Below are positions 18,043 to 19,782 of a DNA stretch of 64,000 nucleotides, one piece after another. Under the pieces are notes generated by a model that saw only the letters and a program-made list of their open reading frames with translations, ran no database searches and was not told the origin of the DNA. Made by a program: the position numbers and the translations under genes. This DNA comes from Ignavibacteriota bacterium (lineage in GTDB: Bacteria; Bacteroidota; Ignavibacteria; Tepidaquicellales; Tepidaquicellaceae), in NCBI GenBank assembly GCA_020437545.1, contig JAGQWH010000001.1, forward strand, positions 1-64,000. Reading direction: 5' to 3'. Position 1 is the first letter of the stretch, and every line of letters begins with the position of its first letter.

Positions 18043-18837
18043 ATGAGACCTAGTATAGTAAATGAAGTAGATTTTACCTTTTGGTTTATCATGGGTATAT
18101 CAATTATTCTACTGCTGTTAATTACAATTGTGATGCTTTATTTTGTATATAAGTACAGCAGAAAAAGAAATCCTGTAGCGACACAAATCGAAGGTAATAC
18201 AACTCTTGAAATTGTTTGGACAGTTATCCCCATAATTCTTGTATTGATAATGTTTTTTATCAGCTGGTCTGGTTTCAGGAATATGAGAGATGTTCCGAAA
18301 GATGCTATGATAGTAAAAGTAAACGGACAGATGTGGAAATGGACATTCGAATATGATAATAAGAAAAAATCCGATACACTGTTTCTGCCTGTAGATAAAA
18401 ATATTAAATTTGAAATTACATCCACTGATGTACTTCACAGTTTCTATCTACCTGCATTCAGATGCAAGGAAGATGCAGTACCCGGCAGAACGAATTATTA
18501 CTGGATAAGAACTACTGAAACAGGAACATTTTTTGCTGCATGTGCGGAATACTGCGGACTGAATCACTCTTATATGTATGCACCGATAAAAGTAGTTGAA
18601 GATGAAAAGTTTCAGGTCTGGAAAAATTATTTTCCGCCTGATACAACAAAGACAGCGGATTCTTTAAAAACGGATTCTACTGCCAATACAAAGGATACAT
18701 TAAATTCATCTTCCGGAATGACAGATTCTGCCAAAACAGGATCAGATAAACAAACAATTGATTCGGTTGCAAAAACAACACCTTCATCTGATATTAAAAA
18801 AGATGATGTTAAAAAAACAGATTCATTAAAAAAGTAA
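18043..18837 (+). CDS. ctaC: Cytochrome c oxidase subunit II with CuA site
   Basis: A 264-residue protein: two transmembrane helices (about residues 10-35 and 60-82) and a cupredoxin domain with the CuA ligands (LHSFYLPAF; CAEYCGLNHSYM). It accepts electrons from cytochrome c; no cytochrome c domain is fused to it. The last about 65 residues form an unusual Ser/Thr/Asp/Lys-rich tail (from TTKTADSLKTDS to KKTDSLKK). The TAA stop at 18835-18837 is in the same reading frame as the next gene, ctaB. Confidence 0.94.
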   Translation: MRPSIVNEVDFTFWFIMGISIILLLLITIVMLYFVYKYSRKRNPVATQIEGNTTLEIVWTVIPIILVLIMFFISWSGFRNMRDVPKDAMIVKVNGQMWKWTFEYDNKKKSDTLFLPVDKNIKFEITSTDVLHSFYLPAFRCKEDAVPGRTNYYWIRTTETGTFFAACAEYCGLNHSYMYAPIKVVEDEKFQVWKNYFPPDTTKTADSLKTDSTANTKDTLNSSSGMTDSAKTGSDKQTIDSVAKTTPSSDIKKDDVKKTDSLKK

Positions 18838-18843
18838 TTTAAA

Positions 18844-19782
18844 ATTATCCATACTTCATCAGCAAATAAAAAGGAAATATCATTAGAAGCCGGAAGACAC
18901 ATTGGACTTTCAGGATGGGTAAAGATATTATTTGAGATCACCAAGATCAGGATAACCGTACTTGTAGCTTTTACCACAACACTCGGATATGTCCTTGGCC
19001 TGGATAACCTTCAAGCATTTTCATTATATCCTATAATCGGGATCTTTTTCCTCGCATGCGGAGCATCAGCTTTGAATCATTATCAGGAAAGAAGAACAGA
19101 TCTGTTAATGGACAGGACCAAAAACAGACCTATTCCATCAGGCACAGTAACGCCTTCAGCAGTTCTTATAATTGCTGCATCGTTCTTACTGCTCGGAAGC
19201 GCTACGTTGCTTATTAAGTCAACTGTGCTGACGCTTGGGATCGGACTGCTGACATTCTTCTGGTACAATGCAGTTTATACGCCAATGAAAAAAGTATTTT
19301 CACTGGCAATCATTCCCGGATCTCTTGTAGGCGCTTTACCTCCACTGGCAGGATGGGTAGCAGCCGGCGGAGATGTATTTGATCCTAAAATAATGCTGAT
19401 CGCAACATTCTTTTTCATCTGGCAGATCCCGCATTTCTGGATACTTCTGCTTGTGTATGGAAAGGATTACGATAAAGGCGGATTCCCGACGCTTACTAAT
19501 ATATTCAGCAGCAGACAGCTTATAAATATTACATTCTGCTGGATCATACTTACGATTGTGATAGCATTGTCATTTAATTTCTTCGGAATTATGAATTACA
19601 ATGTAACAAGTATATTTCTTGTATTGCTTTGCGGATGGTTATTATATCATTCTCTGATCTTCCTCAGATCAGGCGGCGATAATAAAGGATTCAAAAATAT
19701 GTTTATAAGAATAAACATATTTGCTTTGCTTATTATTACATCTTTGTCTTTGGATAAATTAATAAAACTCTTTCTGGAATAG
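18844..19782 (+). CDS. ctaB: Heme O synthase (protoheme IX farnesyltransferase), non-standard start
   Basis: CtaB farnesylates heme b to heme o, the precursor of heme a for the oxidase. The prenyltransferase motif is clear: NHYQERRTDLLMDRTKNRP with the Asp pair, and a second loop YGKDYDKGGFPTL. Conserved sequence begins upstream, at GWVKILFEITKIRITVLVAF (first helix), but no ATG, GTG or TTG lies in frame between the ctaC stop and the TTG at 19072, which is inside the catalytic motif. I place the start at ATT 18844 tentatively. That gives about 312 residues, the normal length; readthrough of the ctaC TAA or a sequence error are alternatives. Confidence 0.85.
   Translation: MIHTSSANKKEISLEAGRHIGLSGWVKILFEITKIRITVLVAFTTTLGYVLGLDNLQAFSLYPIIGIFFLACGASALNHYQERRTDLLMDRTKNRPIPSGTVTPSAVLIIAASFLLLGSATLLIKSTVLTLGIGLLTFFWYNAVYTPMKKVFSLAIIPGSLVGALPPLAGWVAAGGDVFDPKIMLIATFFFIWQIPHFWILLLVYGKDYDKGGFPTLTNIFSSRQLINITFCWIILTIVIALSFNFFGIMNYNVTSIFLVLLCGWLLYHSLIFLRSGGDNKGFKNMFIRINIFALLIITSLSLDKLIKLFLE

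Follow-up and report, generated by a model that had tools for sequence, protein, structure and literature searches.

To our knowledge, few bacterial genes with AUN starts have been documented, such starts being rare and usually weak. The textbook case is infC, whose AUU start is known to serve the autoregulation of IF3 (PMC5472188). For pcnB of Escherichia coli, an AUU start is reported (Binns and Masters 2002, as cited in PMC13009471), and according to this citation the weak start limits the expression of an enzyme. In Staphylococcus, cvfC1 (AUU) and ccpN (AUA) combine conserved non-canonical starts with extended Shine-Dalgarno sequences, and these starts were shown by profiling and reporters (PMC13009471). 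In Streptomyces, the proportion of two products of one operon is determined, under the influence of IF3, by the non-canonical start of sigR (PMC5472188).

The gene ctaB, located in a window of 64,000 nucleotides from an Ignavibacteriota bacterium (the whole stretch analyzed here, positions 1 to 64,000 of contig JAGQWH010000001.1), compares with each of these systems in part. Like infC of the same genome (AUU/AUC/AUA), it would have an AUN start that lacks a standard alternative and is kept by descent; the infC start serves IF3 autoregulation, whereas ctaB is a respiratory assembly gene behind ctaC with no feedback loop evident. A weak start limiting the expression of an enzyme, as cited for pcnB, is also what is proposed for ctaB, although the gene and the phylum are different and, as far as we know, pcnB does not directly follow the stop codon of a partner gene in its operon. 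The start is conserved as in cvfC1 and ccpN, but ctaB has no extended Shine-Dalgarno sequence and its start is proposed from sequence. The proposed setting of a ratio between two operon products under IF3 recalls sigR, which differs from ctaB in its GTC codon, its strong ribosome-binding site, its place as the first gene of the pair, and its having been tested in vivo. Literature searches for unusual ctaB starts or for Ignavibacteria start codons returned nothing relevant. The conserved non-canonical start appears to be real in a gene for which no earlier report was found, within a class of AUN starts that is already known.

The ctaC–ctaB junction

Both genes are read from the plus strand. ctaC (coxB), encoding cytochrome c oxidase subunit II, occupies 18043–18837, from the ATG at 18043 to the TAA at 18835–18837. 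Its product matches TIGR02866 (CoxB) with 189.8 bits, above the cut-off, as well as the COX2 and COX2_TM domains. The C-terminus (18640–18834) is a long low-complexity Ser/Thr/Asp/Lys tail with KTDSLK-like repeats, which is present family-wide in relatives and varies in length. Within the cox operon of the window and of relatives, ctaB stands immediately behind ctaC; its open frame in the window extends from 18838 to the TAG at 19780–19782. The gene is named for its best match, TIGR01473, and for its place behind the subunit II gene: TIGR01473 (heme o synthase) is by far the top NCBIfam match at 195.5 bits, 15 bits below the cut-off of 210.3 bits that NCBI curates as its calling threshold, and the UbiA prenyltransferase domain PF01040 is found at 142.8 bits against a Pfam cut-off of 34.2. 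As inferred below, the coding sequence spans 18847–19782 and encodes a CtaB-like UbiA-family heme O synthase of 311 amino acids, which would modify heme for the respiratory chain.

An earlier note on this DNA had pointed out that the ctaB frame contains no ATG, GTG, or TTG upstream of 19072, and that ctaC and ctaB share one frame and are parted by the single TAA at 18835–18837. Both statements are borne out by the sequence and its translation. The first standard start triplet, TTG at 19072–19074, lies inside the conserved core, where it encodes the Leu immediately preceding the Asn of the catalytic motif LNHYQERRTDLLMDRT, and is implausible as a start. Long gaps of this kind are by themselves unremarkable, since 62 of 465 ordinary genes of this genome (~13%) have no ATG, GTG, or TTG in the 74 codons past their start. 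Remarkable, by contrast, is the complete lack of a standard start in the stretch from the upstream stop to the conserved CtaB sequence, a lack observed in seven species. The adjoining cox genes have standard start codons in the window and in relatives.

Distribution and origin of the probable nonstandard start

ctaB was searched in all 29 genomes available for the family and found in 23. The comparison of start codons among relatives, which the earlier note had recommended as a check, revealed seven species without a usable standard start: the window species (L001), L002, L004, L005, L006, L008, and L009. Four named public records (L031, L033, L034, and L036) read likewise. In four further species, a standard triplet occurs only downstream of the conserved N-terminus and out of register, namely ATG at codon 14 of the open frame in L003, GTG at codon 28 in L007, ATG at codon 31 in L010, and TTG at codon 20 in L012; these triplets could serve as the ctaB start in those four. 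In other members of the family and of the class, ctaB begins with TTG, ATG, or GTG. TTG is the ctaB start in most of the Ignavibacteria sampled (L031–L110), so that across the class this gene as a rule has a weak start.

In a CtaB tree computed without the N-terminal columns and rooted for drawing only, the eleven rows (seven plus four) make up one side of a branch with a support of 91/81, recovered in 93% of the bootstrap trees, and none of 500 label shuffles was equally clustered. Because the eleven rows fall on one side of a branch, a single origin of the nonstandard start in this eleven-species clade is likely.

The same distribution bears on two explanations that the earlier note had offered. 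The window does come from a fragmented draft genome of 429 contigs, in which the start codon might have been lost through a wrong base or through faulty assembly; the feature, however, recurs in independently assembled relatives with identities down to 62%. Being common to at least seven species, the absence of a start is not a sequencing error, an explanation to which we attach a negligible probability. Readthrough of the ctaC stop, yielding a CtaC–CtaB fusion, is hardly more credible. It would draw on the shared frame and the single intervening stop, an arrangement found in the window, L002, L007, and L008. In contrast, the two genes lie in different frames in L003 (a congener, 91% identical), L006, L009, and L010, and additional stops interrupt the ctaB frame between them in L004, L005, and L012. 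With frames out of register or extra stops in these relatives, a readthrough fusion is excluded as a common mechanism. Slippage by −1, programmed at the A-AAA-AAG that precedes the ctaC stop, was also considered and rejected: it would reach a stop two codons later and does not lead into the ctaB frame.

Where ctaB translation begins

The in-frame codons after the ctaC stop are TTT AAA ATT ATC CAT ACT TCA TCA GCA AAT AAA. Among three congeners, all 12 pairwise differences within codons 3–14 of the ctaB frame fall on third codon positions, which indicates that the region is translated from about 18844 at least. In an unguided MAFFT alignment, most members share the N-terminal block I-[HQE]-T-x3-[NHY]-K (18847–18882, plus strand), which shows small departures, is conserved as protein across genera, and begins at the window's ATC, 18847–18849. 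In the column of this codon, ten species have ATC or ATT, and all 12 sister-family rows have TTG, which is evidently their start, as in the alignment of LKRSSAN (sister family) with IHTSSAN. The row of L009 is poorly aligned and has ATA in the column. That ATA is found in none of the ten species would have a chance of ~0.9% given isoleucine usage (86 ATC, 132 ATT, 132 ATA), a weak argument in view of the relatedness of the species. The codon after the inferred start is CAT, CAA, CAG, or GAA, unlike the A-rich second codon usual in this genome.

The alignment also qualifies the proposal in the earlier note of a rare-codon start right after ctaC at ATT 18844–18846. The position directly behind ctaC is strongly supported; as for the codon itself, ATC 18847 aligns better than ATT 18844. 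ATT is the best-known non-canonical start, and an isoleucine codon occupies the position of ATT 18844 in L001–L006 and L010. Isoleucine is, however, not kept there in L007 (AAA), L008 (GAG), and L012 (ACA), while the codon that follows is ATT or ATC in all ten species and is aligned with the sister-family TTG. A start at ATT 18844, one codon before ATC 18847, is thus unlikely. A rare codon further downstream (ATA 18877, CTT 18907, or similar) would produce a shorter protein. Such a protein would resemble that of distant Ignavibacteria, where the TTG start of ctaB lies ~11 residues ahead of the core, and in the congener L003 an ATG replaces ATA 18877. Yet the codons before ATA 18877 are kept as protein, differing at third positions only, and the codons aligned with the downstream candidates are neither start-like nor conserved over the clade, which makes this reading very improbable.

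With ATC 18847 as the inferred start, the leader TTTAAAATT (18838–18846, plus strand) is A/T-rich like other leaders of this genome and contains no Shine-Dalgarno motif. Such motifs are generally rare ahead of the ATG genes of this genome, AGGAG being found in 5%. No structure was predicted for the ctaB leader, as the RNA fold was no better than that of shuffles (z +1.0). The start-column codon was computed to lie 9 nt past the ctaC stop in the window and 9–24 nt past it across the ten species.

Probable weak initiation and other candidate nonstandard starts

Taken together, ctaB very probably lost its standard start in one clade of uncultured Ignavibacteria, where weak initiation at AUC or AUU (ATC 18847–18849 here) would keep CtaB scarce. 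CtaB is an enzyme needed in small amounts, and TTG is a generally weak start; the TTG start of ctaB in most other Ignavibacteria would accord with selection for low expression. Decoding of the AUC/AUU start would fall to the ordinary initiator tRNA. An altered initiator tRNA was rejected as an explanation: by pattern search, this genome yielded a single initiator tRNA, with the anticodon CAU, and the other match with CAT is not accepted as a tRNA by ARAGORN. IF3 is likewise ordinary and matches its family along the full length. Its gene reads TAA TTT ATT AAA AAC, a standard start being absent, and each of the 17 infC loci parsed has AT[TC] in that place and no standard start.

Since the start codon lies so shortly past the ctaC stop, ribosomes finishing ctaC would probably supply much of the ctaB initiation. 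Starts at AUC and AUU are weak, and IF3 discriminates against them; the level of CtaB would therefore likely be held well below that of the oxidase subunits from the same operon. In Staphylococcus growing in poor medium, non-canonical starts yield roughly one tenth of what AUG does (PMC13009471); in Streptomyces and E. coli they are under IF3 repression (PMC5472188), and reinitiation in the absence of a Shine-Dalgarno sequence is IF3-sensitive in E. coli as well (PMC2268962). From these precedents, we infer a weak translation of ctaB carried out mostly by ctaC-terminating ribosomes, with initiation at an AUC/AUU codon, coupling to ctaC, low yield, and sensitivity to IF3 as its parts.

A two-state coding screen was run over 1.26 Mb, ~30% of this genome; an earlier codon-usage screen of the same 1.26 Mb had been too coarse and missed ctaB. 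Ten open reading frames were found with coding-like sequence ahead of the first standard start, ctaB ranking first among the plausible genes, and the screen also picked up infC, a WzxE-like polysaccharide flippase, and two weaker cases. The flippase gene (G000:C10:10900-12411; L156, L255) has no ATG, GTG, or TTG until codon 50. Its start column contains ATT, ATC, or ATA, with no standard start nearby, in all eight species compared (homologs L256–L262). It is the second case in this lineage of a non-canonical start that is conserved. Two secreted proteins may be mentioned alongside. The signal peptide of a peptidase-like gene (G000:C4:4216-5040, minus strand; L150, L247; also L248, L249) has no standard start in the window species; an aligned ATA AAA TTT start occurs in a congener as well, and standard starts are nearby in other genera. 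In the other gene (G000:C35:37-2430; L181, L263), the signal peptide begins with ATA AAA CGT and relatives have an ATG near there; an error is possible, since the gene is close to a contig end. Two further loci (L149 113–1441 and L178 4004–4849, both minus strand) are probable frameshifts, one of them at a run of twelve G; they could stem from errors in assembly or from variable tracts. The main open frame of the release factor 2 gene prfB (L148 1099–2160) contains, close to its beginning, CTTTGAC, apparently the frameshift site usual for this gene.

The true number of nonstandard starts is probably larger, because a downstream ATG, GTG, or TTG hides most of them. It is conceivable, albeit doubtful, that Ignavibacteria possess a set of AUU/AUC genes, comprising at least infC, ctaB, the WzxE-like flippase, and perhaps more, which jointly answer to the level of IF3. 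If true, such a set would make the assembly of the oxidase and the export of envelope polysaccharides dependent on the state of the translation machinery, and this in a lineage where Shine-Dalgarno motifs are rarely used. On the practical side, gene finders limited to ATG, GTG, and TTG would start CtaB at TTG 19072 and lose the N-terminus together with the first membrane helices. A replacement of UUG by AUU/AUC throughout a clade, probably of single origin and in a gene located directly behind a stop codon, would provide, with the sister families as controls, a natural comparison for how evolution tunes the strength of start codons in bacteria where Shine-Dalgarno signals are mostly absent.
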